Assembly (NCBI GenBank): GCA_017431345.1
Contig: JAFRLH010000055.1
Coordinates: 1 to 58,228 of the forward strand
Direction of reading: 5' to 3'
Length of the DNA stretch: 58,228 nt
DNA from: Lachnospiraceae bacterium
Lineage (GTDB): Bacteria > Bacillota > Clostridia > Lachnospirales > Lachnospiraceae
A program made the translations under genes and the position numbers. The notes beneath the pieces are model-generated. The model had not been told where the DNA came from, did not search any database, and saw only the letters and a list, made by a program, of their open reading frames with translations. Positions 5,987 to 32,686 of the stretch are shown piece by piece. Position 1 is the first letter of the stretch; every line of letters begins with the position of its first letter.

Positions 5987-5987
5987 A

Positions 5988-6719: not shown

Positions 6720-6729
6720 GCCAGACTCC

Positions 6730-7755: not shown

Positions 7756-7760
7756 ACCTT

Positions 7761-8777: not shown

Positions 8778-8801
8778 AAATCTTCCTCCATAACTACGGG
8801 A

Positions 8802-9851
8802 TCAGCAAAAATTCGCCAGCCAACTATGCCTTTCAGTTATTTTTATCAATACTGCCGATGTTGCTATTGAAAGCGCCAGCATTGTGAACCATCCAATATA
8901 TGGATTTCCTCTCAGCAGCTGTTCGAATAGGCTCTTTTGAAACAATTCCGGCAAAGCCGATAGATAGATCCTCTGACATAAAAATATATCGGTACTCATT
9001 TTCCTGAACCAGATCGTTACTCTTGTCGTCTTCATCCGTATTCCAAGGCACCACAGAAGGAAGAAATAGGTAAATGGTAACAGCATAATTAACGTATTTA
9101 CATTCACTGCTCCAAGTTTTTTTATCACCAACGCTTCAGCAATAAAAAACATTCCAAAAATACATGTTAGGACAAGATTTCTTATTACATTTTCAGAATA
9201 ACTATTTTCGTCTTTCATTGAGATCATATATCCGATCAAAACAAAGGGAAATCCATTAAATATCCCGTTGCGTGTAGTAAAAAAGATATAGTTGTAACAT
9301 TCAAGGATTTTGCTTCCTTCAATTCTAAAACTATAACTAGCCCCCAAACACCCCAGAATATAGAATATACATCCAAGAAAAGCAGTCCATCTGACACCTA
9401 CTTTTTGAGCAAAGAAGAATACCAGTACTGCGCCTACCACAGTAGCAGGTAAAAACCATATCGTTTTATAGGTTGAATAAGTTACACAGGTCAGAAAATA
9501 GTGCAACACATCTGTTCTTGAAGTTCCATATTTCATCCATGTCAACATAGTGAAACACACATAAACCAATGACCAGCCAAAATACATGATCAATAGTTTT
9601 TTGCAGTACGTCCATAATATTATTTTACTAAAGTTGCCGTCTTTCATTTTTCGAAATAAAAAGAATCCGCTGCATGCGAAAAAGAAAGGAACAACGATAA
9701 CATATATAGAAGAAGCGTAATCAATGACCGGATGAATACGCCCCGCAGCATTTTCGGAGATATAATGGGCCGAAACAATCAACAGTGCCAACAACAACTT
9801 TACGATATCGACTGCTCCATATCCGTCGTTTTTTGTCGTCACCCCCCTCAT
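8802..9851 (-). CDS. Membrane acyltransferase (acyltransferase-3 family), third copy
   Basis: This is a multi-spanning protein of about 349 residues beginning MRGVTTKNDGYGAVDIVKLL; the segment VDIVKLLLALLIVSAHYIS is the degenerate family first helix ending in His. I prefer the ATG at 9851, which has AAGGA nine bases upstream, over a TTG two codons earlier. It follows the hydroxyacid dehydrogenase gene after 47 nt. It presumably modifies the same glycan as the other two acyltransferases. Family assignment is good; substrate is unknown. Confidence 0.8.
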   Translation of the reverse strand: MRGVTTKNDGYGAVDIVKLLLALLIVSAHYISENAAGRIHPVIDYASSIYVIVVPFFFACSGFFLFRKMKDGNFSKIILWTYCKKLLIMYFGWSLVYVCFTMLTWMKYGTSRTDVLHYFLTCVTYSTYKTIWFLPATVVGAVLVFFFAQKVGVRWTAFLGCIFYILGCLGASYSFRIEGSKILECYNYIFFTTRNGIFNGFPFVLIGYMISMKDENSYSENVIRNLVLTCIFGMFFIAEALVIKKLGAVNVNTLIMLLPFTYFFLLWCLGIRMKTTRVTIWFRKMSTDIFLCQRIYLSALPELFQKSLFEQLLRGNPYIGWFTMLALSIATSAVLIKITERHSWLANFC

Positions 9852-9898
9852 ATTCAAGATTCCTTCCTATGCTATAATATTCTCGTGATTTCAGATAT

Positions 9899-10816
9899 TC
9901 AATCTATGTTTCTAACTGACCATTCCTCAAGAGCGTTCATCACAACTTTTCTCAATCTCCCTACATTTTCCGCTGATACATAAGCATTATGCGGTATGAT
10001 TCTTACCCGATCAGCATTCCATCCCCAATATTCTTCATCAAGTGGTTCATTCTCAAAAGCGTCCAAAATAACTTTTCTGAATTTTCCTTGGTCAAGACTA
10101 TTCATCAACGCATCTTCATCGATCAGGCCACCTCTCGCCACATTTACCAGCACGGCATCATCTTTTACATATTCGAGGAATTCCGTGTTGATCATATGAT
10201 ATGTCTCCTCAGAAAGCGGAAGAGTCAGGATAATGATATCGCAGGTTTGTACAATTTCTCTTGCAAAATCCGGTTCATATATTTCTTTAAAATACTTCCT
10301 TGGCTTCGTATCGATATCAATCCCAAAAATATTATCCGTAAATCCGGAAAATCGTTTTGCCGTCTCCATTCCAACACTTCCCGTTCCGAAAATACAGATC
10401 CTGCTACGAGATATTTCGTGAAGATTTCTGTTTTTCTCCCATTTTCGCTTTTTCTGATTTTCATAAAAAAAGGACGGTGTTTTATATGCTTCAAGCACTG
10501 CCATAACCGTAAACTCAGCAATCGGTATGCTATATACCCCTCTGGCATTTCTGACCTCTATTCCCTTTTCCGCAGCATAATCCATGGGCATACGATCGGT
10601 TCCTGCGCTTAAAAGCTGTACCGCTTTCAGATTTCTAAATTCATTGATATCATGATGAATAAAGAGAAAATTACAGACCACGATATCATAAATATTCGAA
10701 TCCGGGATATGTTCCGCATCTTCCCGTTCGATCTTTGTTATATGGTATCCACATCCCTTCAGCCTCAGTTCATCTTCGGGGGATAGGCTAAAACTTCCCG
10801 TAATAAGTAAATTCAT
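9899..10816 (-). CDS. D-isomer-specific 2-hydroxyacid dehydrogenase (NAD-binding)
   Basis: This 305-residue protein has a Rossmann dinucleotide loop GTGSVGMETAKR near residue 140, the arginine-containing VNVARGGLIDEDAL motif, a Glu in FENEP and the catalytic His in IIPHNAYVS. These are the R-E-H residues of the phosphoglycerate/lactate dehydrogenase family. It should reduce a 2-keto acid or oxidise a 2-hydroxy acid. In a glycan operon beside rfbFG and an aldolase-like gene, a role in making an unusual sugar or hydroxyacid substituent is inferred rather than housekeeping serine synthesis. The N-terminal part is short and divergent. Confidence 0.87.
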   Translation of the reverse strand: MNLLITGSFSLSPEDELRLKGCGYHITKIEREDAEHIPDSNIYDIVVCNFLFIHHDINEFRNLKAVQLLSAGTDRMPMDYAAEKGIEVRNARGVYSIPIAEFTVMAVLEAYKTPSFFYENQKKRKWEKNRNLHEISRSRICIFGTGSVGMETAKRFSGFTDNIFGIDIDTKPRKYFKEIYEPDFAREIVQTCDIIILTLPLSEETYHMINTEFLEYVKDDAVLVNVARGGLIDEDALMNSLDQGKFRKVILDAFENEPLDEEYWGWNADRVRIIPHNAYVSAENVGRLRKVVMNALEEWSVRNID

Positions 10817-10849
10817 AAAATATCCTCTTTACCTATACCCTAACAACAA

Positions 10850-11902
10850 TTATGGAAATGCAAGGAATTCTTCTATCTGCTTATCCATAATCGGTCTGAC
10901 ATCTTCTCCCTCTGCCCACGCTTTACTCCATTCAACCACCTTCTCCATTGCAGTTTCAAGATTCCAGCGCGGTTTCCAGCCAAAAGCATGTTTCAGCTTT
11001 GAGCAATCGAGTTTCAGAAAATTTGCTTCATGCGGGCCACCGTCATACTGATTGATCCATTGTATCCCGTTTCCCCAAAGATTTACGAACAAATCTACAA
11101 GGGCACCTGTCTCATAACAGTCTCCATCATCAGGACCGACATTATACCATGACTGAAGTTCTGGATGCCCATATTGCATTGCAGCTATCATCAGATAGGC
11201 ATAGACTGGCTCAAGCACATGCTGGTATGGACGAGTCGAATGAGGATTTCTTACGATAATATCCTCTCCCTTCATTGCTGCCCTGATACAATCGGGAATG
11301 ATTCTATCTTTCGCGAAGTCTCCTCCTCCAATTACATTTCCTGCCCTGGCTGTAGATACAGCTACGTAACTATTTAGAAAAGAAGCCTTGTAACTGTGAG
11401 TCACTAGTTCAGAACATGATTTGGAATTAGAATACGGATCATATCCGTCAAGCGGTTCATTTTCTCTGTACCCCCACTCCCATTCCCTATTCTCGTACAC
11501 TTTATCAGTAGTCACATTTAGAAAAGAACGCACAGAATCTGTAAGCCTGACTGCTTCACAGATATTTACGGTTCCCATAACGTTTGTACTATATGTATTC
11601 ACCGGATCCTTATAACTGATACGTACGATCGGCTGGGCTGCCATATGTATGACGATTTCAGGTTGGTATTTCTCAAACACTTGAAGGATATGCTCCAGAT
11701 CCCGAACATCCCCTTTTATATGTGTAATCTGATCCTTTACACCACATAGATCAAAAAGACGTGTTTCTTTTTTGCTGCAGGTCGAATATCCAATCACTTC
11801 AGCACCGTAATTAACCAAAATCACCGACATCCAGGAACCTTTAAAACCAGTATGACCGGTTAACAGTACTTTTTTCCCTTTATAAAAATTCAGATCCATC
11901 AT
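10850..11902 (-). CDS. rfbG: CDP-glucose 4,6-dehydratase
   Basis: This 350-residue extended short-chain dehydrogenase has TGHTGFKGSW near residue 15 (NAD loop), a VTTDKVYENREW stretch and the YSNSK active-site Tyr/Lys pair. Very high similarity in pattern to RfbG is evident, including the VLEPVYAYL and GWKPRWNLETAMEKV regions. It converts CDP-glucose to CDP-4-keto-6-deoxyglucose. It shares its first base with the stop codon of the upstream gene rfbF, which makes its substrate. No rfbH-type 3-dehydrase for the next dideoxysugar step is seen in the window, so the final sugar is uncertain. Confidence 0.95.
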   Translation of the reverse strand: MMDLNFYKGKKVLLTGHTGFKGSWMSVILVNYGAEVIGYSTCSKKETRLFDLCGVKDQITHIKGDVRDLEHILQVFEKYQPEIVIHMAAQPIVRISYKDPVNTYSTNVMGTVNICEAVRLTDSVRSFLNVTTDKVYENREWEWGYRENEPLDGYDPYSNSKSCSELVTHSYKASFLNSYVAVSTARAGNVIGGGDFAKDRIIPDCIRAAMKGEDIIVRNPHSTRPYQHVLEPVYAYLMIAAMQYGHPELQSWYNVGPDDGDCYETGALVDLFVNLWGNGIQWINQYDGGPHEANFLKLDCSKLKHAFGWKPRWNLETAMEKVVEWSKAWAEGEDVRPIMDKQIEEFLAFP

Positions 11903-12684
11903 TAATCATCCCATTTTTTCCACGGCGCATTACCGGATTCAAACATACTTTCAAGAATATCCATCTCTCTCTTTGTATCCATACACTGCCAAAAGCCTCT
12001 GTGCATATAAGACATGAGTTCGCCTTCAGAAGCCAGCTTTTCGAGCGGGTCACGCTCAAATATCGTTCGATCTCCTTCTATATAATCAAAAACCCGTGGT
12101 TCTAAAACCATATACCCTGCGTTTATTGGAGCTTCGTCACTCTTGCTTTTTTCTCGAAAAGATTTAACTGCGTTCTTTCCGTCAATATCAAGTATACCTT
12201 TCTGCTGTTCAAGCATTACTGCTGTCAGTGTAGCCGTTTTCCCGTTCTTAACATGATATTCGAGCAACTTATTTATATCCACATCACAGACACCATCTCC
12301 ATAAGTCATAAAAAATCTTTCATCGCCGATATAATGCCTGATTCGTTTAATCCTGCCACCCGTCATGGTATTTAAACCTGTATCTACCACTGTTACCTTC
12401 CACGGCTCCACGTGCCGTGAGTGAACAATAATGTCATTTTTTCCCTCTGTATAATCAAAAGTCACATCACTATTAATCAAAAAATAATCCGCAAACCACT
12501 CCTTAATCACATTCTGTTTATACCCGGCACAGATAATAAATTCATTATGTCCATAAAAGCTGTACTCCTTCATAATGTGCCAGAGTATCGGTTTTCCTCC
12601 AATCTCCACCATTGGTTTAGGTTTAAAGCGAGATTCTTCAGAAATCCGGGTTCCGAATCCACCTGCCAAAAGAACTACTTTCAT
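11902..12684 (-). CDS. rfbF: Glucose-1-phosphate cytidylyltransferase
   Basis: This 260-residue nucleotidyltransferase starts MKVVLLAGGFGTRISEESR, followed by KPKPMVEIGGKPILWHIMK, the signature of RfbF. It also has MTYGDGVCDV as the metal-binding segment. It forms CDP-glucose from CTP and glucose-1-phosphate. The ATG at 12684 is preceded by GGAGATTA and gives the normal family length; an upstream in-frame start would add nine residues. It feeds the overlapping rfbG gene. Confidence 0.95.
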   Translation of the reverse strand: MKVVLLAGGFGTRISEESRFKPKPMVEIGGKPILWHIMKEYSFYGHNEFIICAGYKQNVIKEWFADYFLINSDVTFDYTEGKNDIIVHSRHVEPWKVTVVDTGLNTMTGGRIKRIRHYIGDERFFMTYGDGVCDVDINKLLEYHVKNGKTATLTAVMLEQQKGILDIDGKNAVKSFREKSKSDEAPINAGYMVLEPRVFDYIEGDRTIFERDPLEKLASEGELMSYMHRGFWQCMDTKREMDILESMFESGNAPWKKWDD

Positions 12685-12745
12685 AGTTAATCTCCTTAAA
12701 TAATCATTCACAATCTCATCTACATAGTTATTTCATAAATATGTC

Positions 12746-13795
12746 TTACAAATGATCATTTGCAAGGCTATCCAAGACACTTTTGAGGTTTTCGTCAGTA
12801 TATCTATGCCTTAATTCGTTTGGAATATTCTGTAAAACATAGTTGATCTTCGGATAAGAAAATTTCATTTTCATTCTCATGATCATTGCATATTTGTAAG
12901 CAGTATTATACAGTGCTGGCAGAGAACGATCAACAGAATATCCCCACTGTCCGTAAGATGTAAGCGGTTCGATCAGATCGCAGACTTCAAGAATCTCATC
13001 AAAGACATATTGTTTACCGTAATGTCTATTCAAATGTGGAAGAATGATTTCTGTCTGAAGATTTCCAGCTCCCTGTCCCATACCTATAGCACAAGAATCA
13101 ACAATGACTGGCCTGTCGCCTGCTATTCTAATAAACTCTTTCGCATTTGAGAAAGCAAGATTTAAATTGTTATGTGCATGGAATCCAATTCTTATTTTTT
13201 TATCCAGCCTCTCATCGTAAAATCTGAAAAGTCTCTCTACGTCTTCTGGCTGCATATACCCAAAACTATCTACAAAGTATAGCGCATACGCATGCATTCG
13301 ATTAGCACGTTCAATCAACATTTCCAATTCATCTTCAGTATATCGCATTGTGAGCATCGGTTGCACAAACGTATTATACCCTTTTTGAGATAACATCTCA
13401 CAAAATGCGACTGATTTTTCCAGTTCTGAATATCTGAGAATCACACGTGTCCCATCTACTAAAGAAGGATTTCGCTCAGGTATCATGTTTGGATCTGTAT
13501 CTGGCCCGGTGAAAAGCGCAACATACATCTGTTTTGAATTTTTTTTAAACGGCAAAAAACGTGAAATATCCTCTATACTGAAATAATTTGCGAACGGACT
13601 TCCAATAAAGCGGCTTTTTTCTATATATCCAAGTTCTACAATATCTACATCAGACTTCACAAGATGATCTCTTGATTCTGATATGATCTCTTTTGTGAAT
13701 CGAACCTCTGAGATTCCCGCTCTGTAAGATGCCTCCAGCCCCTGTCCTCCATCTCGCAGGGTACAATCCAGTAATTGTATTTTTAGATTGTTCAT
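12746..13795 (-). CDS. DRE-TIM metallolyase (HMGL-like aldolase domain protein), first gene of polysaccharide operon
   Basis: This is a protein of about 349 residues with IQLLDCTLRDGGQ at the N-terminus, the DRE-TIM metal/substrate motif of HMG-CoA lyase, 4-hydroxy-2-oxovalerate aldolase and isopropylmalate synthase relatives. It also has IGFHAHNNLNLA, supplying the metal-binding HxH-N. These enzymes make or break C-C bonds using pyruvate or acyl-CoA-type substrates. I infer that it supplies a carbon skeleton for an unusual glycan component, perhaps with the 2-hydroxyacid dehydrogenase downstream. ATG at 13795 is used; a TTG two codons upstream is possible. The SD is weak. The exact reaction is unknown. 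Confidence 0.8.
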   Translation of the reverse strand: MNNLKIQLLDCTLRDGGQGLEASYRAGISEVRFTKEIISESRDHLVKSDVDIVELGYIEKSRFIGSPFANYFSIEDISRFLPFKKNSKQMYVALFTGPDTDPNMIPERNPSLVDGTRVILRYSELEKSVAFCEMLSQKGYNTFVQPMLTMRYTEDELEMLIERANRMHAYALYFVDSFGYMQPEDVERLFRFYDERLDKKIRIGFHAHNNLNLAFSNAKEFIRIAGDRPVIVDSCAIGMGQGAGNLQTEIILPHLNRHYGKQYVFDEILEVCDLIEPLTSYGQWGYSVDRSLPALYNTAYKYAMIMRMKMKFSYPKINYVLQNIPNELRHRYTDENLKSVLDSLANDHL

Positions 13796-13864
13796 GCACA
13801 ATTTCTTAACATGTCCTCGTCAAGAGTATCAGGTGTTTGTTAAGTTCCTCCCTATTTTTGCTCC

Positions 13865-22594: not shown

Positions 22595-22804
22595 CTACTT
22601 CAGCACCTGTTTTGCATTTTTCGTAATGGTCTTAAAGATCGTTCCGGTGAGACTGGTAAGCTGGGTCTTGAAAATAAGAACGAGCGCAATGAGAACAACG
22701 AGGATCAATATGACCTCCACGACCCCCACCCCGCGGTCGTCTTCGTGAAAATCCGCCAGGCCTCCGAAGAGCCTGAGCATGAACATGTTAAACCAAAGTG
22801 ACAT
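22595..22804 (-). CDS. Flp1-like type IVb major pilin
   Basis: This 69-residue protein has a short N-terminal leader with acidic residues, then GVGVVEVILILVVLIALVLIFK, the hydrophobic pilin helix with the Glu after the cleavage region, followed by a short tail. This is the Flp1-like layout of Gram-positive Tad pilins. AAGGGGG precedes the ATG. It is followed after 6 nt by the DUF5702 gene and preceded by tadC. It is probably the main pilus subunit cleaved by the peptidase at 19486-19911. Confidence 0.85.
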   Translation of the reverse strand: MSLWFNMFMLRLFGGLADFHEDDRGVGVVEVILILVVLIALVLIFKTQLTSLTGTIFKTITKNAKQVLK

Positions 22805-22828: not shown

Positions 22829-24187
22829 TTAAAACGTCATCAGTGCAGGGGCGACGAGCAGTACGAGGACCACCAGCAGAAGGAGCATCATCGGCGCAAG
22901 CAGTTTCGATGATGCTTCCTCTCCGTATCTTCTCGCATTCCGCATCCGTTCCTCCAGCGCCTGATCTGCTTCAGCCTTCAGCAGCGGCAGAAGGCCGGCA
23001 CTTCCGAGTTTCACGTTTGATGACAGCAGGCCTGCAAGGCGCATATAGGCAGTCAGCCCGCATCTCCTGCCGAATTCCGTATACACATCTTCCTCCCGTT
23101 CACCCTTTTCAAAGGACCTCACGGCGTAGGTCATTTCTTCATATACTGCTTTCTTTTCCATTCCCTGTGCCAGCATATCCCGGTAGCCTGCCGCAATATT
23201 GATCCATGCACCGCGTACCGTCATTCCCGCGCCCATCAGTACTGACAGCATGCTGACAATCTCCGGATATGTCCGGATCAGTTCCGTTTCGCGTTCCCTG
23301 ATCTTTTCCGCTCTTTTCTGTTCCGGCAGGATCACCAGGCAGGCTGCTGTTAAAATGCCAAGCGCGGCAAATAGTACCGGGGAAACGCCGTCTTCCCCCG
23401 GATATCTGATTTCTTCTCCGTCATATCTGTCCGGCAGCTGCAGTTCTTCTTCCGTACGTTCTTTCTCCGCCTCGGAAACCGCGTCCGACAGCTGCTTTAT
23501 GATCCGTGCATCCGGCGTTTCTGCAGAAGGTATTCTGACCGCCTCGATCTTTGTCTTCCATTCAGTTCCTTCGTGCGCGATCGTTACATACAGATCTGTC
23601 TTTGCGGGAAGAAACGCTTCATCGATCGCAGGAAGGCTTCCGTCAAATGATATGATTTCCGGATCTCCGCTCTCCCATTCCGCCGTAATTCCCGGTATGC
23701 CGGTCTCTTCCGTGAGCGTCAGTTCTCCGGAAATATGCTGCCAGTCAGGATTATCTGCAAGAGCCTCCTGCGTCACATTTCTGTATGCCGTCTGCTTCAG
23801 CGTTTCCCATTCTTCTTCAGAATATCTCCTGCTTCCGACAGTCACGGGGATCTCATATTCCTTTCCTCTGTATTCTGTTTTAAGCAGGTGTAATTCTTCC
23901 TCTTCCCCATAGTCCGGCCGGGGCAGAGAAGTCAGATAACCGGTTCCTGAAACAACGCATGAAAGTGCTGCCAGTACGACACCTGCAGCGATACAGTACA
24001 GAGCATGCTTCAGTCTGTCGTTATCTTCTTTTCTGACGATCTCTGCAGCATCACATCCCGGATCCAGTCTCCGCACACGCAGCAGCCTGGATTCCGACAC
24101 CGCCGGCAGGCCGAACTTCCTGCGGAAGCCATACCACAGATCCGCGAAGAAATACTGTTTCTGTCTCTTTCTCCGCCTTCTTTTCAT
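22829..24187 (-). CDS. TadC-like pilus assembly platform protein with extracellular Ig-like insertion
   Basis: In this 452-residue protein the C-terminal half is a type II secretion F-type domain (MLSVLMGAGMTVRGAW, then helices ending LLLLVVLVLLVAPALM) typical of TadC inner-membrane platforms. Between a first membrane helix (about 60-85) and the next (about 268-285) lies a segment of about 180 residues resembling an atrophied bacterial Ig domain (EWESGDPEIISFDG). This would face outside and is absent from ordinary TadC. It follows tadB immediately, with the stop of tadB just before its ATG. It works with TadB and the TadA ATPase. Confidence 0.8.
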   Translation of the reverse strand: MKRRRRKRQKQYFFADLWYGFRRKFGLPAVSESRLLRVRRLDPGCDAAEIVRKEDNDRLKHALYCIAAGVVLAALSCVVSGTGYLTSLPRPDYGEEEELHLLKTEYRGKEYEIPVTVGSRRYSEEEWETLKQTAYRNVTQEALADNPDWQHISGELTLTEETGIPGITAEWESGDPEIISFDGSLPAIDEAFLPAKTDLYVTIAHEGTEWKTKIEAVRIPSAETPDARIIKQLSDAVSEAEKERTEEELQLPDRYDGEEIRYPGEDGVSPVLFAALGILTAACLVILPEQKRAEKIRERETELIRTYPEIVSMLSVLMGAGMTVRGAWINIAAGYRDMLAQGMEKKAVYEEMTYAVRSFEKGEREEDVYTEFGRRCGLTAYMRLAGLLSSNVKLGSAGLLPLLKAEADQALEERMRNARRYGEEASSKLLAPMMLLLLVVLVLLVAPALMTF

Positions 24188-24188: not shown

Positions 24189-24935
24189 TCAGACCTCTGT
24201 TCTCATGATCTTCTCCCCCATCAGGAATGCAGCTGCATACACGATCAGACAGACGGTCATGATGATCCTGCCGGCAGCCGTCCTGTACAGCGGATCCGTA
24301 AATCCCGGATCTCCCAGATTGATATAGATCAGTATTCCTGCTGGCATGATGCACATGATCCTTTGTTCCAGCCGTTTTGCGGCGATCAGCGTGCGGATCT
24401 CTTCCTGTACGGCGATCCTCCTGGCGATCCAGTCGGCGGTATCCCTGAGCACAGGAGCAATCTGTCCGCTCGATCGTTTGGCAGCCGCGAAAACATCCGC
24501 GAACTGCTGGATCTCTCTGCAGCCGCTCCTGTATGCCAGATCCCTGACGGCATCCTCTGCCGTTTCATTCAGTTCGATCTTCCGGCAGATCTGCCGGAAT
24601 TCCTTTGTGATGATCCCGTCATCCCCGTACAGCAGGCCCATCTCCCCGGCTGCGGTCCGGAACGCATTTTCGACCGAATAGCCGGAGGTCATCGCGGCAG
24701 ACACAGACAGTGCGCCGTCCCTGAACTGTACGGTAAGCCTCTGTCTGCGTCTCTCCCCCTTGATCCTGCGGGCATAACGCAGCACCGCAATGATCAGCGG
24801 GGACATCAGTGCTGCGGCAAGATTGCTCCTGTAAAACAGCCATCCTGCCGCATACGCGAGCAAGGTTCCTGCCGCGGCTGTAAGAAGAAACTCAACCGGT
24901 GTCAGCGAACAGTTCCTGTAATCGTTCCCTGTCAT
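24189..24935 (-). CDS. TadB-like pilus assembly platform protein
   Basis: This protein of about 248 residues has the T2SS-F fold: two N-terminal helices, then FRDGALSVSAAMTSGYSVENAF, ADVFAAAKRSSGQIAPVLRDTA and two C-terminal helices, as in TadB. The ATG at 24935 overlaps the 3' end of tadA by 44 nt. A longer frame from 25049 would overlap more and has no SD, so I prefer the shorter form. It forms the membrane platform with TadC. Because tadA upstream is interrupted by a 6-kb element, its transcription may now depend on element sequences. Confidence 0.85.
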   Translation of the reverse strand: MTGNDYRNCSLTPVEFLLTAAAGTLLAYAAGWLFYRSNLAAALMSPLIIAVLRYARRIKGERRRQRLTVQFRDGALSVSAAMTSGYSVENAFRTAAGEMGLLYGDDGIITKEFRQICRKIELNETAEDAVRDLAYRSGCREIQQFADVFAAAKRSSGQIAPVLRDTADWIARRIAVQEEIRTLIAAKRLEQRIMCIMPAGILIYINLGDPGFTDPLYRTAAGRIIMTVCLIVYAAAFLMGEKIMRTEV

Positions 24936-25317
24936 CACCGCTGCCGTTCCGTATAAGCTTTCCCTTTCTTCGGAGACACTGCCCCGTCCTGATGAGCCGG
25001 TTTTTTTCTTCCGACCACTGAAACAGGGGATATGTAAGGATACGGCCATCCCGATATTCGCCTACCTCTCTTATTTCCATTACTTTCCGGCTGCCGTCAT
25101 GGAGCCTGGCAAGGTGCACCAAAATATCTATGGACGAAACGATCTGCCCTCTGACCGCTGCCAGCGGGAGTTCGCCGGCCATCAGGACCATTGTTTCGAG
25201 ACGCGAAAGAAGATCTTCCGGGGAATTCGCATGGGCAGTGCTCAGTGAGCCGTCATGTCCGGTATTGAAAGCCTGCAGCATATCCAGTGCTTCTGCGCCT
25301 CTCACTTCTCCGACAAT
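24892..25317 (-). pseudogene. tadA: tadA/cpaF ATPase, C-terminal fragment separated by mobile element
   Basis: From 25317 leftward the frame reads IVGEVRGAEALDMLQAFNTGHDG, then STAHANSPEDLLSRLETM, the conserved C-terminal half of the Tad secretion ATPase after the Walker-B-like region. The missing N-terminal part is at 31388-32193. The frame continues about 28 codons into the element to a TTG at 25401 with no convincing SD. An N-terminally lacking protein would have no P-loop and could not be an active ATPase. Confidence 0.92.
25313..25317. other. Left attachment core of the tadA-inserted element
   Basis: ACAAT at the boundary between tadA codons (25312 and below) and element sequence. It matches the right core at 31388-31392. 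Flanks outside this core differ between the two ends, as expected for attL and attR made by a large serine recombinase. Confidence 0.8.
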
Positions 25318-25430
25318 GATATTAGTGTATACAAAAAAGTACGCTCGAAATAATTGTTTTCCATTGCTCTTATTATCTACTACACAAAGTGTGGAATACA
25401 AAAAAATTTAGTATATTGTCAGATAATATC

Positions 25431-25531
25431 TTGACTTATACATAAATATACTATATAATATCAATAGATATAAACACTCCAAACACTCCAGAACAGCAAA
25501 TATTACAAACTACTGTTCTCGGAGTGTTTTT
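25431..25531 (+). promoter_or_regulatory. Promoter and leader terminator-like hairpin upstream of the excisionase gene
   Basis: TTGACT (25431-25436) and TATAAT (25454-25459) with a 17-base spacer form a near-consensus promoter. The transcript leader then contains a hairpin with arms AACACTCCAGAACAG and CTGTTCTCGGAGTGTT (about 25481-25530) ending in a T-run, immediately before the SD AGGAGG at 25539-25544. The ACACTCC arm sequence is also present as a direct repeat just upstream. This layout suggests attenuation or antitermination of the xis-like gene. Confidence 0.65.
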
Positions 25532-25548
25532 GTATGCAGGAGGTTATT

Positions 25549-25737
25549 ATGGAAAGTTACTATTATACAGTTGAACAGATGCAACAGTATCTACATTTAG
25601 GGCGAACACAAGCATATTCTTTATGTCATGAGCCGGGCTTTCCTACAATTCGAGTTGGCAGACGTATTTTGATTAATCGTGAACGATTAGAAGAATGGTT
25701 GCTCGAACAGGAAGAGAAAGAGGAACTTAATAAATGA
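25549..25737 (+). CDS. Excisionase-like helix-turn-helix protein
   Basis: This 62-residue protein contains YTVEQMQQYLHLGRTQAYSL, followed by PTIRVGRRILINRERLEEWL, the winged-helix HTH_17/excisionase pattern. AGGAGG lies shortly before the ATG at 25549. Such proteins direct recombinase-mediated excision. It is the first gene inside the left end of the element, and its stop overlaps the next start (ATGA). A regulatory-only role is possible. Confidence 0.85.
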   Translation: MESYYYTVEQMQQYLHLGRTQAYSLCHEPGFPTIRVGRRILINRERLEEWLLEQEEKEELNK

Positions 25738-25994
25738 AGACTAAACAGAAAAACGTAAACAGGATTCCCGTGGTAAATCTTCTTGGATATAATGGACATG
25801 AAAAAGAAGCCGTTGATACTGCTTTGATTCCGCTGATTGAATCTGGCGTTAAATTCGCTGTTCTTCGTTATGAAGATGGCTTTATGCTCCAAATGTATAG
25901 CCTATCTGAACATGAGCAGTATTCAATCTTGGAAGAAATCAAAGCAGAATATGATTTTTCCATGGGTGGGTATGATGAAACATTCTTTACGTGA
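25734..25994 (+). CDS. Small conserved-looking element protein, unknown function
   Basis: This 86-residue acidic protein overlaps the excisionase gene by 4 nt and the following gene by 23 nt, so all three form a coupled unit. It contains VKFAVLRYEDGFMLQMYSLS and a C-terminal SMGGYDETFF stretch with no family I can name. There is no signal peptide or membrane helix. Its position between an excisionase and a possible Rep suggests a replication or maintenance accessory, which is only inference. Confidence 0.6.
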   Translation: MKTKQKNVNRIPVVNLLGYNGHEKEAVDTALIPLIESGVKFAVLRYEDGFMLQMYSLSEHEQYSILEEIKAEYDFSMGGYDETFFT

Positions 25995-26520
25995 GTTGGA
26001 ACTGATAGGAAAAGCAGAGAAGGAAGAAGCAGCCAAATTAAATGCCGGTTTGCATTTCGTTAAAGCAGATGCAGAGAACAAGAAATTCTACCATACTAAC
26101 GAGACAGTTTACAGAATTGAGTTCCCGCATCAATCATATGAACAAGCCGTTTCTTTGTTCAATAGAATGGATCGGTTTTGCAGGCGAAATGTAGACATAA
26201 GTCAAACTGCTGTGATACTTGGCTTTAGTTGTCACAAGCACTGGACACCGTTTACCACAGTATCGACAGGAGGCAGACCGAAGAAAGTATTTGATGCCAT
26301 GCCCTACTATCGTGCTGATCCTCATGTTCATTTGTACCTGATTGGCAAGAATGCACGTTCACTATCAGAACGAATCTATAAGACACAATCACGAAAGATG
26401 AAGCTAAAGCCATTCCGTCAAGTCGTTTTCTCCGAACATACTTTGTGTCCAGACTATGTGAGGTGGCAATCTACTTTATACAGAGAGTTCGGAAATGTGG
26501 AATCGTACCTTATCAAGTGA
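25972..26520 (+). CDS. Possible compact HUH-type replication/relaxase protein
   Basis: This protein of about 182 residues starts at one of two adjacent ATGs (25972 or 25975) and overlaps the preceding gene. It contains YRADPHVHLYLIG, where His118-Val-His120 flanked by hydrophobic strands resembles motif II of HUH endonucleases. At the extreme C-terminus it has NVESYLIK, resembling the Y-x-x-K catalytic motif III, about 60 residues later. The middle has SCHKHWTPFTTV. These spacings are compatible with small rolling-circle Rep proteins, but similarity is limited to short motifs, and it could be unrelated. The start codon choice is uncertain. Confidence 0.5.
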   Translation: MMKHSLRELELIGKAEKEEAAKLNAGLHFVKADAENKKFYHTNETVYRIEFPHQSYEQAVSLFNRMDRFCRRNVDISQTAVILGFSCHKHWTPFTTVSTGGRPKKVFDAMPYYRADPHVHLYLIGKNARSLSERIYKTQSRKMKLKPFRQVVFSEHTLCPDYVRWQSTLYREFGNVESYLIK

Positions 26521-26797
26521 GACTTTAATTCACATTTTTCTTGAACGAGTAATGCTTGGAACGCTCGTGTTTACTTGATTTGTGCCGTTTTTCAAGTCAG
26601 AAAAAAGTGTAGTAACAAGAGTAATCAAGCATACCCAGACCAGCTATAATACTGTCAAACAAATAGCAGTAAAAACAGCTATTATATTGTATCTGTATAG
26701 CAATCAATACAATATATTTATCTGATAATTAAACATTGTATATGCTATTGTATCTAAATATTACACAATTCATTTTTTCAAAAAAAGGAGAAAAAAC
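26521..26797. other. Non-coding, hairpin-rich gap inside the element
   Basis: No reading frame of note. AT-rich with several imperfect inverted repeats (for example AATAGC/GCTATT near 26660-26680) and repeated TTGTAT pieces around 26680-26755. It could hold an origin or termination signals downstream of the possible Rep gene. Confidence 0.35.
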
Positions 26798-26959
26798 ATG
26801 AAAAATATAATCAGCCGAATCTTGTTTCATAGTGATTTTGATGAAATTTCACTTTCTAAAGAAATCTGGATTGACCTCAAAGTGAGAAATGTAATGCTCT
26901 TCTCCTTGATTGTGCTGTCAGTTGTTCTTACTGCTTTTATAGTCTCATTGATTTTTTAA
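26798..26959 (+). CDS. Small single-pass membrane protein, unknown
   Basis: This 53-codon gene has a strong AAAGGAG SD eight bases before its ATG. The product is MKNIISRILFHSDFDEISLS, then a polar stretch and one C-terminal hydrophobic helix (VMLFSLIVLSVVLTAFIVSL). It is therefore a tail-anchored or single-pass protein. Nothing like it is recognised. The SD and clean hydrophobic helix support that it is real. Confidence 0.55.
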   Translation: MKNIISRILFHSDFDEISLSKEIWIDLKVRNVMLFSLIVLSVVLTAFIVSLIF

Positions 26960-27153
26960 GAAAAATAAATTTTATCATTGTAGTCCGATGATATATTTAG
27001 TATTTATATGCTGTTATATGTAAATTAAATAGTTAAACTCCTCACCCCCTACCCCGTCTATTTTCAGACTAATTAAACGCAAAACGTAGTCTGATAACCT
27101 TGATTTTTTCAAGTGCGTATTTTGAAGTGAGTGTTTAACAATGGTGATCATTT

Positions 27154-27546
27154 ATGAAAAAGAAACTTGATGATTATACTCTCCTCTCTCTTTGCCTTGC
27201 CGGTAAAACACAAAGTCAGATTGCAGAGGAGTACGGCTTGACACTTTCGCAAGTGTGCCGAAGAATTAATGCCCCGAAATTTCAAGAACAGTTATCACAG
27301 CACAGGAAGGCAATTCTGGATTCCGTATTGAGTACACTAACCCATGCAAGTTCCGAAGCTGTACAGACATTAGTTGATTTACTGCATCATGATAATGGGT
27401 ATTTACGATTCTCGGCAGCCTCTCGCATCTTGTCACTTGTCCAAGACCTCTGCATCCAAAATGATATGTTACGAGAAATTGAAGCGATAAAGAAAAGTCA
27501 AAATATCGCAAATCAAGACAGGGGGGGTATGGATCGTGAACTCTAA
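27154..27546 (+). CDS. Helix-turn-helix protein, terminase-small-subunit-like
   Basis: This 130-residue protein has an N-terminal HTH (SLCLAGKTQSQIAEEYGLTL, then SQVCRRI) and a helical C-terminal half with a coiled-coil tendency. The layout of an HTH followed by helices resembles phage terminase small subunits and other sequence-specific DNA binders of mobile elements. It starts a second forward gene cluster. A dyad TCAGACTA/TAGTCTGA about 60-90 bases upstream may be an operator. The phage-satellite reading is inference. Confidence 0.6.
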   Translation: MKKKLDDYTLLSLCLAGKTQSQIAEEYGLTLSQVCRRINAPKFQEQLSQHRKAILDSVLSTLTHASSEAVQTLVDLLHHDNGYLRFSAASRILSLVQDLCIQNDMLREIEAIKKSQNIANQDRGGMDREL

Positions 27547-27718
27547 TCTTCGACACGTCAAAAGAGAACTTGACCGACTGAATAAGGCAGATACCGATTA
27601 TAACAAAGTGACTATAAATGTCGTTCTTGACTTCTCACGAAATGGTATTCCCGGGAAGAAATATGTTCTGGCCAGGATACGTTGCAGTAAAAAATTATTA
27701 CAGAAAATACAATTTTGA
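27536..27718 (+). CDS. Small hypothetical element protein
   Basis: This 60-residue basic protein starts at GTG 27536, overlapping the preceding gene by 11 nt, with a G-rich SD just before it. It includes TINVVLDFSRNGIPGKKYV. No family recognised. Overlap and spacing suggest that it is translated with its neighbours. Confidence 0.5.
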   Translation: MNSNLRHVKRELDRLNKADTDYNKVTINVVLDFSRNGIPGKKYVLARIRCSKKLLQKIQF

Positions 27719-27733
27719 TTAAGGAGCAAAAAA

Positions 27734-28435
27734 ATGTCCAATAGATATGTTTCTATGATGAAAGATTATGTCCGCAACTATCAAAAGAAAGAAATGCAGT
27801 ACCAAGAACAGCGTCTGGATGCTAAAAGAAAATACTCTGCTGAATTTGCCCAGAGCGAACTTGCAAAGATTCAAGAACAGGCGACAGCTTCATATTTTCA
27901 TTACAAAAGCGCCATCGGAAATGTCTTTAATGAAATTCGGGAAAATCTCTCTGCCGCCTGTTATCCCGATATTGATATGATTCCAGAAGCTGAAAGAAAT
28001 CTATTCAGCGCCAACTCTCCCATCAAACTTACTCCGAATGAAATCAAGATGAAGATTTCACAATACAAAAATAATTTTATGGTTCAGCGGATGATTTCGG
28101 ACTATATCGATAGACAGAGACAAATCCAAAATAGAGAAGCAGAAAGCACCTCTTCCGCTCCTGCGGATATATATGCAGATTGTAAAGTATTTACTCCCGA
28201 GGATCACCTGAAAATTTACAAGCAGTTCGCCGATAGTGCTTTATCCATGATTGATAGTATTCATTACGCTCCACAGAACTCTTCCGCTTCTTATGTTGAA
28301 GCGTTTGCAGATGAAAACTTTGCTTCGGAATTGTTCGAGGTAATTGGGGATGGTGAGAGCCTGAAGCAGTACAAAAACAAGCCTTATTATTCTATTGCTT
28401 CTCACTCTTTTGACAGCGTTAATGTGAACGAGTAG
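27734..28435 (+). CDS. Coiled-coil-rich element protein, unknown
   Basis: This 233-residue hydrophilic protein has a charged helical N-terminal half (YQKKEMQYQEQRLDAKRKY...) and no membrane segment or signal peptide. AAGGAG precedes the ATG. It is the last gene before a hairpin-rich non-coding stretch. Possible roles include a scaffold, replication accessory or capsid-size modifier, but there is no recognisable motif. Confidence 0.6.
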   Translation: MSNRYVSMMKDYVRNYQKKEMQYQEQRLDAKRKYSAEFAQSELAKIQEQATASYFHYKSAIGNVFNEIRENLSAACYPDIDMIPEAERNLFSANSPIKLTPNEIKMKISQYKNNFMVQRMISDYIDRQRQIQNREAESTSSAPADIYADCKVFTPEDHLKIYKQFADSALSMIDSIHYAPQNSSASYVEAFADENFASELFEVIGDGESLKQYKNKPYYSIASHSFDSVNVNE

Positions 28436-28681
28436 AACGCTTTCTAATGCGTTTTAGAGCGTCATATACGCATTTTAGACACGTTCTAGTATAAATACAC
28501 ATTGAACTTATAAACTCGCTTAAAACGCTTTAAACAGCGTTTTAACACAATATATGGTAGTTGTAATTCTCCTGCTTCCACCATATATTGTGCCATATAC
28601 TTCCTTTACTTGGCAGTCGAATGATTCGCTATCATGCAGTCATTCGGCTGTCTTATTTTCTTGTAAAGAATAGCAGTATCA
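28436..28681. repeat. Iteron-like repeats, 13-bp inverted repeat and terminator inside the element
   Basis: This stretch has repeated ACGCNTTTTAGA-type words (about 28440-28490), a TAAAACGC...GCGTTTTA dyad near 28520-28543, and a perfect 13-bp inverted repeat CACAATATATGGT/ACCATATATTGTG at 28546-28558 and 28580-28592. A 10-bp stem at 28615-28624/28640-28649 follows, with a T-rich tail that looks like an intrinsic terminator for the forward genes. No gene is seen. The repeats resemble replication-origin or recombination sites. Confidence 0.55.
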
Positions 28682-28774
28682 AATCTAACGTTATGTGAAT
28701 TAGTATTAAAACTGATTGAAAAAGCATCTAATCTGTGCTATATTAGATGTAGCAAAAATAACGTTCGTTAGATT
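28682..28774 (+). promoter_or_regulatory. Resolvase promoter embedded in a res-like set of dyads
   Basis: TTGAAA (28716-28721) and TATATT (28739-28744), with a 17-base spacer, precede the resolvase gene. Around them are four ATCTAA-type half-sites: AATCTAACG (28682), CATCTAAT (28725), ATTAGATG (28742) and CGTTAGATT (28766). The first pairs with the last and the middle two pair with each other. This looks like an autoregulated resolvase binding region or res site. Confidence 0.65.
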
Positions 28775-28795
28775 AAATACAGAAAGGAGTTAATC

Positions 28796-29506
28796 ATGAT
28801 TTACGGATATGCAAGAATAAGTAGAAAAACACAGGACATTAACAGACAGATAAGAAGCATCAATGAAGCCTATCCCAATGCAATTATTTTTCAGGAAGCC
28901 TTTACAGGGAGAGTGAGAAGCACATCCAGACCTGAATGGAACAAGCTATATAAAAATGTTCGCTCTGGCGATACTCTTGTATTTGATAGCGTTTCCAGAA
29001 TGAGCAGAAATGCCGAAGATGGGATCAGGGTTTATTTTGAATTATTTGATAGGGGTGTTAATTTAATATTTCTCAATGAACGTCACATTGATACAGATGC
29101 CTATAAGAAAGCACTTGAAAACTCAGGTATTAAAGTAGCTTTTTCAGATGAGAATGAAACAGCCGAAAATACTTTGATTAGAGATATTATTGAAGCCCTC
29201 AATAAATTTATGAGAGCAAAAGCCAGTGATGATATTATCAAAGCGTTTGAGCAGTCTGAAAAAGAGGTCGAGGATAATTCAAAAAGAACAAAAGGGGGAA
29301 TTGAAACAGCACGCATTAATGGTAAGCAGATTGGTCAGAAGCCAGGGGCAAAGCTGACAACCAAGAAATCTGTTGAAGCCAAGAAGCAAATCGAGAAGTA
29401 CAGCAAAGATTTTAACGGAACTCTTTCTGATGCTGATGTGATGAAGTTGACAGGATTAAGTAGAAACACATACTACAAATATAAAAGAGAATTAAAAGAA
29501 GCGTGA
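28796..29506 (+). CDS. Small serine recombinase (resolvase/invertase type)
   Basis: This 236-residue protein has MIYGYARISRKTQD at the N-terminus with catalytic Ser9, followed by the resolvase core (LVFDSVSRMSRNAEDGI with conserved Arg residues). A C-terminal HTH reads SDADVMKLTGLSRNTYYKYK. Such enzymes resolve plasmid or replicon multimers or invert segments. AAGGAG precedes the ATG. It sits just before the large recombinase (small gap) and just after a res-like region, which supports a multimer-resolution role in a circular form of the element. Confidence 0.92.
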   Translation: MIYGYARISRKTQDINRQIRSINEAYPNAIIFQEAFTGRVRSTSRPEWNKLYKNVRSGDTLVFDSVSRMSRNAEDGIRVYFELFDRGVNLIFLNERHIDTDAYKKALENSGIKVAFSDENETAENTLIRDIIEALNKFMRAKASDDIIKAFEQSEKEVEDNSKRTKGGIETARINGKQIGQKPGAKLTTKKSVEAKKQIEKYSKDFNGTLSDADVMKLTGLSRNTYYKYKRELKEA

Positions 29507-29526
29507 TTATACGAAAGGATAAGACT

Positions 29527-31347
29527 ATGAACACTCCAAAAACAGACAAAAGACGTGCGGTGGCATACTGCAGAGTGAGCACCGACAAAGAAGAACAGAG
29601 AACTAGTATTAAGAATCAGCGTATCGAACTAAAAAGAATATGTGAGCGTGAAAATTGGGTAATGCCAATAATCAATGTCAAAGGCTTATGTGATGCCGGT
29701 GTTTACTATGACATTGAAAGCGGTACAAAAATTATACGGCCTGCTCTGCATAGATTATTGCTTGACGCAGGACTGACACCAATTGTTGATGCTGATACAG
29801 GAAAAGAGACTTCTCAATATAAAATCGACAGGCAGCCTAAATTTGATTTAATTGTTGTGAAGGATGCCTCTCGTTTTTCTCGTAACATAAATATCAATAG
29901 CATAATGCAAGCATTAAAAGATAATGGTGTATATGTTATTTTTCCGGAAATGAATAACATGACAACAGAACGAAATGAGGATTGGAGTGTTATTCAGCAG
30001 TACATTATATTTGCGGAAGGTGAGAGCCGGCGAAAAAGTAAAGCTGTATCTTTTGGATATGAAGCTGGCTTAAAGCAAGGCAAGATATATTTTGGCGGTA
30101 AAATGTTCGGTTATGACTATGACAAGAAAAATAACCGTCTTATTATCAACGAAGAAGAAGCTAAAGTTATCAGACGTGTTTTCGCTATGTATACCGAAGA
30201 AGGTCTGGGACAGCACAGGATCTGTAATGCTTTAGCAAATGAAGGCATTTATACAAAACGTAGAGACAAAGATGGAACGCCTGTCAAGTACGGAAGAAGC
30301 ACTATCAAAAGATGGTTGGAGAATGAAAAATACTGTGGCATCACCACAGGAGGACGCTATCATAAAATCGACTTGTTTAGTGGGAAGAGAATTGAGCGTG
30401 ACTATGATGACAGATTGAGAGTAGAAGCACGTAAAGCACAGCAGAAACTTGCAGAGCAAGGGATTATAAAAATTGAGCCTATTATTACTGTTGAGCAGTA
30501 CGAAAAAGCACAGCAGATAACAGCCAGAAATGCTGAAATGTATAAAGTCAGTAAGGAGTGGAAGGGAACAACTGACTATGCAAAGAAAGTAGTCTGTGGG
30601 TGCTGTGGAGCATATTACAGAGCATCTGGAAAAAGAGAATATGCAAAGTATGATCATCAGAAGATTACTCGTTATGTCTGCAGGCACAGAATTACTTTTG
30701 ATGAAGCACACGGTATCCCTAAATGTGAAAATCCTGCTATTCTGGAGCCGGAATTAGATAAAGCATTATTTGGACGCAGTTATTGGATACACAGAAGAAA
30801 CAATATTGAAGAACTGATCAGCACAGGAGACTTTTATATTTCTGTTCTTAAGAGTGCAATTAACAGAGATAATGCACAGGCAATAAAAGAAATTGAAGAA
30901 CAGATAACAACTATCAGCTTAAAGCGTGAACGGCTGTTGGATCTATATGCTGATGGCATCTATAGCAAGGATGAACTCGAAAAACGTACTGTAGCATTTA
31001 CCGACCAGATTAGTGAACTGTCTGCAAAGAAAGAACAGCTTTCAAAGGGTAATGAAGCAATTTACAAAGATATTGAGCAAATCAATACCATGATTCAGTC
31101 TGCAAAAGAAGCACAGAAAGAAGTGGAGGAGATTCTTTCTAAAAAGAAATATCCCAAACAAACACGTAAGGAATTATTGCGTGATGTTGAGCAGATAACA
31201 ATAGATGCACATGGCAAACCACATATCACTTTCAAGTCTTTAGAGAATATAAAGAACATGATAGCAAGTATGGGTATCGCTATTGAAAACTATGCAGATG
31301 CAGAGGAAGCCGGTTGGGAAGAAGAACTATCTGAAGCTGAAAAATGA
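29527..31347 (+). CDS. Large serine recombinase (site-specific integrase of the element)
   Basis: This protein of about 606 residues has RAVAYCRVSTDKEEQ with catalytic Ser18, a resolvase domain, a recombinase domain (GYEAGLKQGKIYFGG..., RRVFAMYTEEGLGQHRI), a zinc-ribbon domain (CGCCGAYY...CRH...C) and a C-terminal coiled coil. This is the full architecture of large serine integrases. AAGGA lies before the ATG at 29527; an upstream frame start is less likely. The stop at 31347 is only 41 bases from the right junction, the usual place of an integrase next to its attachment site, so it very probably catalysed insertion into tadA. Confidence 0.95.
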   Translation: MNTPKTDKRRAVAYCRVSTDKEEQRTSIKNQRIELKRICERENWVMPIINVKGLCDAGVYYDIESGTKIIRPALHRLLLDAGLTPIVDADTGKETSQYKIDRQPKFDLIVVKDASRFSRNININSIMQALKDNGVYVIFPEMNNMTTERNEDWSVIQQYIIFAEGESRRKSKAVSFGYEAGLKQGKIYFGGKMFGYDYDKKNNRLIINEEEAKVIRRVFAMYTEEGLGQHRICNALANEGIYTKRRDKDGTPVKYGRSTIKRWLENEKYCGITTGGRYHKIDLFSGKRIERDYDDRLRVEARKAQQKLAEQGIIKIEPIITVEQYEKAQQITARNAEMYKVSKEWKGTTDYAKKVVCGCCGAYYRASGKREYAKYDHQKITRYVCRHRITFDEAHGIPKCENPAILEPELDKALFGRSYWIHRRNNIEELISTGDFYISVLKSAINRDNAQAIKEIEEQITTISLKRERLLDLYADGIYSKDELEKRTVAFTDQISELSAKKEQLSKGNEAIYKDIEQINTMIQSAKEAQKEVEEILSKKKYPKQTRKELLRDVEQITIDAHGKPHITFKSLENIKNMIASMGIAIENYADAEEAGWEEELSEAEK

Positions 31348-31387
31348 CAGTTAAATAGCTGTCAATCTTAAGAACTTTTTTGTCTGC

Positions 31388-31392
31388 ACAAT
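31388..31392. other. Right attachment core of the tadA-inserted element
   Basis: ACAAT, matching the core at 25313-25317. Sequence to the right encodes the tadA N-terminal half up to RPDRIIV; sequence to the left is element DNA that gives the tadA fragment a short foreign tail (QTKKFLRLTAI) before a stop. Confidence 0.8.
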
Positions 31393-32193
31393 AATCCTGT
31401 CCGGCCGCATCCGGAGCGCTGTCCGGATCAGATCGCGGATCGTGATCTCCCCCATTCCTTCGGCATTTCTGTTCCTGGTCTCCAGCCTGACCAGATTCGG
31501 GATGTTCTGGATCTGCAGTTCAAGAGAATCTTCAATCGTGATGATCCGTTCGTGCTCCGGGATAAATGCTGACAGCGCATTTAAAAAAGTAGTCTTACCG
31601 GAACCTGTACCGCCCGATATGAACAGGTTGTACCCGCACCGCACCAGAATCTTCAGAAACCCGGCCGCCTCCGCAGAAATACTGTTCCTCCGGATCAGCC
31701 CCTGCATGACCAGCGGATCTTTCGGGAACCTCCTGATGGTCAGGATCGGTCCGTCCGGCGCGACAGGAGGCAGCACCGCGTTTACCCTGGAACCGTCTTC
31801 CAATCTGGCGTCGACTATCGGAGATGCCGTATTGACTGCACGGTTCACACGGCTCACGATCTGCTGTATCACATCAGACAGCCGTTCTTTTCCTGTGAAG
31901 GTCTTATCCCAGCGTTCAAGCCTGCCGGAACGTTCCACAAATATTGTGCCGGGTCCGTTTACCATGATCTCTGTCACCGACTCATCTTCGATGAGCTGCT
32001 GGAGGATGTCCAGCCGCCGGAGTGAATCGAACAGTCTCTTTCTGAGCATCAGCCGCTCTCTGACGGACATCCGCAGAGCATCCGGATCTTCCAGAAGCAT
32101 TCTGTCGATCTGTTCCATTACATCTGCGTCGGTCACTTCCTTCAGCGGGCTGATCCTTCGCTGAATGCCTGTCCTCAGTTCATCCTCTGTCAT
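31388..32193 (-). pseudogene. tadA: tadA/cpaF ATPase, N-terminal fragment
   Basis: From the ATG at 32193 (AGGGG SD seven bases before) the frame encodes the N-terminal domain and the ATPase core. Visible features are EIMVNGPGTIFVERSGRL, the arginine-rich VNRAVNTASPIVDARLEDGS region, the Walker A loop SGGTGSGKTTFLNAL and LRMRPDRIIV. The sequence is cut there by the mobile element and terminates 11 foreign codons later. Rejoined with 24892-25317 it gives about 410 residues, normal for TadA/CpaF. A longer start overlapping the protease gene is less supported. Confidence 0.93.
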
Positions 32194-32209
32194 GTGTTTT
32201 CCCCTGCCT

Positions 32210-32686
32210 TTACTCAGCCGTTTTACCGTTCGCACGGTTTGCTTTATCATCCGCACAGTGTCTTTTAACGGCAGTACGGCCGTTTTTCACAGCAGAAAGG
32301 AAACCGCTCAGATCTGATCCGGGAAGGAACGGACAATGGTTCGTAAAAAGGAGTACAAAAAATACAGCGGTGCTGATACCGGCATAAAATCTGTCCAGCA
32401 CTGCCGGCAGCGCAAGCTGCATCAGAAGCCCTGCCATGGTACCGCCTTCAAAAAAGAACAGTTTCTGCAGGATCCCTTTCTCTGCCAGATCCTCTGCGGA
32501 CACCTCCGTATATCCTCCCGTCATCCAGAGAGCAAATGCATATTTCCCTGCTTTAAATACTGTTTCACCGCCGCCGATCTTCACACTGAGGACATGGACG
32601 CCGATCAAATGCGCTGCCGCTGCATGCCCGATCTCATGAACGCACAAATGCAGCAGGATCAGCAGCCAGGTATACAGCAGGATCAT
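32210..32686 (-). CDS. Small HEIGH membrane metalloprotease (M50 site-2 protease-like)
   Basis: This 158-residue protein has four or so hydrophobic helices and CVHEIGHAAAAH near residue 16, giving the HExxH zinc motif (His17, Glu18, His21). A later CPFLPGSDLSGF stretch with an Asp could supply the third ligand, as in NxxPxxxLDG of site-2 proteases, though degenerate. It is squeezed between tadA and a pair of ABC transporter genes, overlapping the latter by 4 nt. It may process an exported peptide or regulator. Substrate unknown. Confidence 0.75.
   Translation of the reverse strand: MILLYTWLLILLHLCVHEIGHAAAAHLIGVHVLSVKIGGGETVFKAGKYAFALWMTGGYTEVSAEDLAEKGILQKLFFFEGGTMAGLLMQLALPAVLDRFYAGISTAVFFVLLFTNHCPFLPGSDLSGFLSAVKNGRTAVKRHCADDKANRANGKTAE

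Follow-up and report, generated by a model that had tools for sequence, protein, structure and literature searches.

Conserved insertion points within coding genes have been described across genera for elements residing in comK, comYC, comFA and comM, and in comFA divergent integrases are reported to converge on separate sites (PMC4774983). In Staphylococcus pseudintermedius, the 44-kb prophage SpST71A splits comGA, a pilus/pseudopilus secretion ATPase gene of the superfamily to which tadA belongs, in mid-frame, and relatives are described as carrying the gene intact (PMC7029219). A survey of large serine recombinases (LSRs) likewise reports that diverse LSRs can share one conserved site within a coding gene, with an enrichment in competence genes (Durrant et al., 2022; PMC10083194). 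Here, a comparable arrangement is described for tadA, which encodes the assembly ATPase of Tad pili, in the 58,228-nucleotide contig JAFRLH010000055.1 of a Lachnospiraceae bacterium (assembly GCA_017431345.1); the whole contig is referred to below as the window. Whereas the account of SpST71A concerns one prophage, one gene and one species (PMC7029219), tadA is interrupted in the window by a 6-kb LSR element and elsewhere in the family by several unrelated elements. The new part is tadA as the target. The targets treated in PMC4774983 are competence genes, and its main text has no word starting with "tad"; the main text of PMC10083194 mentions neither tad, pilus, ATPase nor secretion system, although its supplementary target lists may include tadA. 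No description of tadA as an integration hotspot was found in titles and abstract openings among the matches listed from the open-licence literature. An LSR element of gut bacteria that is reported to insert mostly elsewhere (PMC12904643) was set aside.

The interrupted tadA is encoded on the minus strand. The N-terminal half (31393..32256) runs to Walker B and ends in RPDRIIV near position 31388, its frame continuing to a stop at 31351 within the element, while the C-terminal half (24892..25320) restarts with IIVGEVRG at about 25320 and extends through the His box to the end of the protein. Both halves match the models for T2SSE (PF00437, E 6.7e-35 and 5.7e-16, respectively) and TadA (TIGR03819, E 1e-62 and 5.5e-24), in agreement with an earlier note on this DNA that had placed a precise serine-recombinase insertion at a conserved motif of secretion ATPases. 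When aligned to the intact 465-amino-acid TadA of a congener (L073), the N-terminal half reaches residue 275 and the C-terminal half begins at residue 273. The split therefore costs no codon, and excision would bring back the tadA frame, as had been proposed.

At the junctions (25313..25320 and 31388..31395, plus strand), copies of ACAAT at 25313-25317 and 31388-31392 set a 6075-bp period. Beyond these repeats there is one mismatched base (G at 25318, A at 31393), followed by AT at both junctions (25319-25320 and 31394-31395), so that the identity common to the two, read on the coding strand, is AT-n-ATTGT. The joined element ends, or attP, form a palindrome with 17 of 24 pairs matching, a value equalled by 0 of 2000 shuffles. 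The insertion target, attB, is not palindromic (10 of 24 pairs, equalled by 1876 of 2000 shuffles). Because the attP palindrome centres on the shared AT, crossover may occur there rather than within ACAAT. Thus, the repeat that the earlier note took as the shared core is present at both junctions, but the crossover itself may belong to the neighbouring dinucleotide. The Ile codon is preserved in either case. With its limits set at the shared AT, the element spans 25319..31394, with no strand assigned, and it is AT-rich, with a G+C content of about 0.37 compared with 0.50-0.54 in the flanks.

An empty site is found in the same genus. In genome G003, both window flanks lie on one uninterrupted stretch and overlap at positions 3477-3484 of contig L069, in register with the insertion, with a DNA identity of 78-83% between the flanks and G003. 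A tadA match was obtained in nine of ten congeners (G010 gave none), and in each of the nine the gene continues unbroken across the site. Misassembly or another artefact of the window was rejected, given that the flanks are contiguous in G003 and that the element ends form a coherent attP palindrome. The LSR of the element (29503..31347, plus strand, 614 amino acids) carries Resolvase (PF00239), Recombinase (PF07508) and zinc-ribbon (PF13408) domains, all three above their Pfam cut-offs, and matches the integrase family phrog_95 (E 1.4e-79); the 3' end of its gene adjoins the N-terminal half of tadA. Taken together, the palindromic attP, the congener empty site and the LSR near one end show, as far as the anatomy of a locus can, an LSR-type insertion by attP x attB recombination at Walker B.

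The window is not an isolated case. In a survey of 277 family genomes, 37 of them (including that of the window and the ten congeners) were searched with the N-terminal half from the window and 240 with a full TadA; G301-G332 were left out. With the N-terminal query, breaks beyond Walker B are visible only through short open frames, as in G014. A tadA match was obtained at the thresholds used in 270 of the 277 genomes, some of these being distant paralogues only. In 17 genomes, tadA is split by foreign DNA: that of the window, G014, G015, G076, G088, G091, G172, G189, G191, G195, G207, G217, G229, G266, G273, G282 and G298. Both halves lie on one contig, 6 to 39 kb apart, in six of them (the window, G015, G172, G266, G273 and G298). 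Four further genomes (G168, G231, G294 and G300) have contigs that end at such a site, flush except for one end in G300 that falls about 130 bases later, and these are probable insertions. In G191, two tadA copies (L097 on G191:C34 and L098 on G191:C87) are split at the same residue with similar element ends, and one C-terminal half was found for the two. In G091, a Walker B junction and a His-box junction, the latter with an LSR, are carried by different contigs, which would fit either a single tadA with two elements or two tadA copies. Three genomes with other irregularities were not counted as insertions: G239 has a frame shift in tadA, tadA of G234 diverges at residue 250, and G226 has a one-base shift at the site.

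Two further genome sets were covered. Of 80 tadA loci in genomes with record titles, 75 read through, two (L164 and L153) are split and the remaining three (L152, L157 and L206) reach contig ends. At the level of the class, a search of 196 genomes, at least six of them from the family, with at most eight candidates scored per genome, gave a tadA match in 89 genomes and one case beyond the window, G390. Some of the contig ends in the family survey have a feature of their own: in L109 (G168:C57), L127 (G294:C56) and L114 and L115 (both G231), the contigs stop at the presumed attachment (att) core with almost no element sequence or none. Such ends may reflect mixed populations of occupied and empty sites.

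The TadA ATPase is broken in or close to four of its nucleotide-binding motifs: Walker A, the Asp box, Walker B and the His box. Walker B (RPDRIIVGEVRG) is broken in the window and in G195, G207, G298, G229, G076 and G091, and probably in G168 and G294. The His box (NTGHDGSLSTGHAN) and its edges account for G014, G088, G091, G172, G189, G191, G217, G266, G273 and G282, and probably G231. A single break, in G015, falls at the Asp box (ITIED), and Walker A is the site in G390, which lies outside the family, and probably in G300.

Unrelated integrases have hit these motifs: the LSRs involved form three divergent groups, and beside them stand Tn554-like elements and a tyrosine integrase of the classical type. 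Where members of different LSR groups can be aligned at all, they are 20-30% identical. The LSR of the window is 24-30% identical to those of G091 and G282 and of the Tn554-like elements, and it has no match at E 1e-3 to those of G207 and G298 or to the LSR fragments of G195 and G191. Other recombinases occur at the motif that is hit in the window, where the earlier note had suggested a search for related ones: LSRs in G207 and G298, which are 42% identical, and a fragment in G195, about 30% identical to them. The crossover of this group is read as GA, six bases from the AT of the window. The G298 element, 38.6 kb long, ends in a protein (L122, G298:C86, 4727-6409) that starts like a phage lysin by eye, and is therefore probably a prophage. 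The second LSR group comprises G091, G282 and the G191 fragment (32-46% identical); the junction sequence of G014 equals that of G282, with a serine-recombinase-like open reading frame (ORF) by eye. In G226, the one-base shift (L120, G226:C119, about 1066) falls on the Pro-Asp codons where the GA-type group inserts, and may be a sequencing error, decay or an excision scar.

The attachment site of Tn554, attTn554, lies in radC. His-box elements in G172, G189, G266 and G273 resemble the Tn554 family in carrying tyrosine recombinases, here 95-99% identical, next to a TnpC-like DUF6262 protein (scanned in G266 only), both adjoining the tadA junction, but their target is tadA rather than radC. The combination of tyrosine recombinases and a TnpC-like protein that marks Tn554 is found in part in the G266 element, and G229 has DUF6262 alone, near a junction whose sequence matches the Walker B junction of G091. 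G217 was placed with the Tn554-like elements by a near-identical junction. Blautia luti MSK.16.34 (L164) has a same-residue split, and its serine recombinase has a 99% identical counterpart within the G266 element. Both recombinases of the window element are of the serine type, and the element does not belong to the Tn554 family. The G015 element encodes a tyrosine integrase, a small resolvase and an excisionase-like helix-turn-helix (HTH) protein; this 7-kb element in the Asp box (L070, G015:C37, approximately 4461-11510, with a shared CTATTGAA) also encodes a 334-amino-acid protein with no family. Grouping it with the window element was rejected, only the resolvases matching (29% over 100 amino acids). 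No integrase was identified at the tadA breaks of G076 and G088.

A gene of the same superfamily served as a control. Within the same 80 genomes (G141-G220), with rows counted by hand at E below 1e-70 and G168 entered as unsplit, 7 of 89 tadA copies are split compared with 0 of 59 copies of pilT (assigned by eye; Fisher two-sided p 0.042). This contrast lends modest support to a hotspot.

On this evidence, the LSR of a small integrative, plasmid-like element recombined its attP with an attB formed by the Walker B codons of tadA, and the element is one of many in a family-wide hotspot whose nucleotide-binding motifs are hit by unrelated integrases. We put the probability of this overall account, LSR insertion in tadA together with a family integration hotspot, at about 85%. 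A query with TadA matches one place in the genome of the window, the split copy. Since TadA is the assembly ATPase and this is its one match, Tad pili are likely not assembled while the element is integrated, which retains the view of the earlier note that the pilus is off in the integrated state. A compensating second tadA was rejected on the same grounds; other secretion ATPases matching PF00437 lie on contigs C62 (PilT-like by eye) and C65 (two matches, not read). The LSR and the excisionase-like protein of the element could together excise it and restore the frame, and a resolvase with its repeat block may keep the excised circle in monomeric form. Truncated tadA genes in these genomes are thus often the result of element insertion as opposed to random decay, and the sites give several att candidates, among them that of the window LSR, for which no close relative was found here.

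Several observations weigh against this account. The element boundaries are uncertain by a few bases. No excised form was seen, the attP junction being absent from the assembly in a search allowing up to two mismatches and having no exact match in IMG/VR, where a circular form might have appeared. Of the 17 split genomes in the survey, 8 (G088, G091, G189, G191, G195, G217, G229 and G282) have the two parts of tadA on different contigs, and a single half was read in three others (the C-terminal half in G076, the N-terminal half in G207 and G014). At least one split genome, G266, carries a further TadA-like gene (39% identical) that is itself not interrupted, and loss of TadA is therefore not always complete. 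The control is small and consists of one gene with a match in 48 of 80 genomes. Finally, the case for a replicating element comes from the resolvase and an unassigned 182-amino-acid protein.

As to why tadA is hit, the likely cause would be that the gene is dispensable and that its motif codons are its best conserved stretch of DNA. Integrases would then track this DNA neutrally, with loss of TadA a tolerated side effect, and we lean towards this explanation. The position of the breaks at or near conserved motifs agrees with it, as does the reported targeting of conserved sites within coding genes by LSRs (PMC10083194). The unsplit control gene speaks against pure neutrality, even if the p value is only 0.042, and the enrichment in competence genes reported in the same survey implies that the targets are not drawn at random from conserved genes (PMC10083194).

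Disabling the pilus might also benefit the element and thereby reinforce the choice of site. In its stronger form, this idea holds that elements converge on tadA for self-protection, with disabled Tad pili blocking either DNA uptake, and hence removal by transformation, or pilus-dependent phages and conjugation; tadA would then join targets such as comK, comYC, comFA, comM and comGA. When unrelated integrases converge on the same gene, this is a recognised sign that losing the gene benefits mobile elements, as argued for competence genes (PMC4774983). In tadA, several unrelated integrases have struck several motifs, two tadA copies of G191 are hit, and two different elements occupy the tadA halves of G091. 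A prophage splitting the pilus ATPase gene comGA (PMC7029219) and a reported tie between the Tad motor CpaF and DNA uptake in Liberibacter (PMC8513845) point in the same direction. ComEC is encoded in the genome of the window, but it is common, with a match in 10 of 14 control genomes, and conserved motifs of a dispensable gene would make attractive attB sites without any benefit. Self-protection is plausible but rather unlikely, the neutral landing site being the more likely of the two. The fuller version, in which unrelated elements independently evolved insertion into tadA since loss of the Tad pilus protects them and excise reversibly in part of the population, is rather improbable. If true, it would imply a role for the Tad pili of gut Lachnospiraceae in DNA uptake or phage entry.

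An unlikely alternative concerns the nature of the element, which could be a minimal phage satellite equipped with an integrase, an excisionase, a replication gene and a terminase-small-subunit-like gene. The last of these, a 130-amino-acid HTH protein (27154..27546, plus strand), weakly resembles terminase small subunits (phrog_2538, E 6.2e-8), and the G015 element is broadly similar in gene content, with a very weak terminase-like match (E 0.012). Against this, Pfam gives the 130-amino-acid protein only generic HTH models below cut-off, its phage relatives among the matches listed (20 of 33 records) are mycobacteriophage genes annotated as DNA-binding, RNase E or hypothetical, and between the proteins of the two elements only the resolvases match.

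Least probable, and not supported here, is the regulated switch that the earlier note had suggested, in which the element would stay in tadA and turn Tad pili on by reversible excision under some condition, as with the comK phage of Listeria and with skin in sigK. In its favour, the frame would be restored exactly on excision, the element encodes an excisionase-like protein, and the tadA halves and neighbouring tad genes show no decay. Halves free of decay would be just as likely if the insertion were recent, however. The genus does not share the interruption (a close LSR in 0 of 10 congeners), the assembly holds neither an excised form nor a second TadA match, and the recombinases of those other tadA elements that could be compared are unrelated to that of the window and hence suggest no shared switch design. 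The excisionase-like gene, real as it is, belongs to the ordinary equipment of integrative elements.

The insertion itself looks recent. A close LSR was found in 0 of 10 congeners and in 0 of 298 other family genomes (at most four candidates scored per genome), and recent acquisition is therefore the simplest reading. Among the matches listed from the 299 family genomes, that of the window included, the best is 38% identical over part and 33% over most of the LSR. Pattern-seeded scans of genome_contigs and viral_contigs gave no close relative, and plasmid and phage matches are all below 60%, with 40 listed records at 25-28%. One of the phage matches listed, a 6.4-kb faecal record (MT838016; LSR identity 26%), has no further resemblance by eye.

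The remaining genes of the element are all on the plus strand. The excisionase-like HTH protein (25534..25737, 67 amino acids) matches TIGR01764 (E 2.9e-9; 37.1 bits, with a cut-off of 28.8) and PF12728 (E 1.9e-11), both above cut-off. It is followed by an 86-amino-acid protein (25734..25994) with no Pfam, NCBIfam or PHROGs match, and by the 182-amino-acid protein (25972..26520), possibly a replication initiator, with no convincing family in the same three databases. An HVHLYL stretch in the latter recalls an HUH motif, the protein itself giving a poor single-sequence model (pLDDT 53), no fold match at E <= 0.001 and no match among plasmids, viral contigs or PDB sequences. Next come a 53-amino-acid protein with one membrane helix by eye and no PHROG (26798..26959), the 130-amino-acid protein discussed above, a 60-amino-acid ORF (27536..27718) and a 233-amino-acid protein (27734..28435), neither of the last two having a convincing Pfam, NCBIfam or PHROGs match and the larger none in viral_contigs. 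Scans of the listed element ORFs with Pfam, NCBIfam and PHROGs found no relaxase, although an unrecognised one, for example the 182-amino-acid protein, is possible.

Upstream of the LSR, a small serine resolvase (28796..29506, 236 amino acids; PF00239, E 8.9e-21) is preceded by a block of direct and inverted repeats (28671..28780) that is likely its res or operator site. This pairing suggests a circular, replicating form subject to multimer resolution. Identity of the resolvase to its counterparts is 60% for the gut plasmids pRGI00069 and pRGI00071 and 48-59% for 14 IMG/VR loci. Repeats of the AGTATCAAA type are common to the block, the corresponding upstream block of the two plasmids and, more loosely, the 4 aligned of the 14 loci. 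Both plasmids are 8.4 kb long and typed as non-mobilizable, and their DNA similarity covers only 10-14% of the element.

Downstream of the C-terminal half of tadA on the minus strand, intact open frames encode tadB-like (24189..25049) and tadC-like (22829..24187) proteins and a small Flp-type pilin-like protein (22595..22804), all named by eye. The tadB-like and tadC-like genes have ratios of nonsynonymous to synonymous substitution (dN/dS) of 0.13 and 0.11 against G003, in which the small protein is 97% identical. Low ratios (0.01-0.13) hold for both tadA halves and these three genes; dS values of 0.9-1.9 are near saturation, and the ratios therefore say only that no decay is visible.

Outside the family, the tadA halves of G390 (G390:C6:82623-122233) lie 38.5 kb apart at Walker A, a prophage-sized gap whose interval was not read. 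In the window itself, positions 1-13800 hold an AT-rich cluster (G+C 0.36-0.41) that appears by eye to be a surface polysaccharide locus, with sugar-nucleotide enzymes, glycosyltransferases, and acyltransferase-like and flippase-like proteins.

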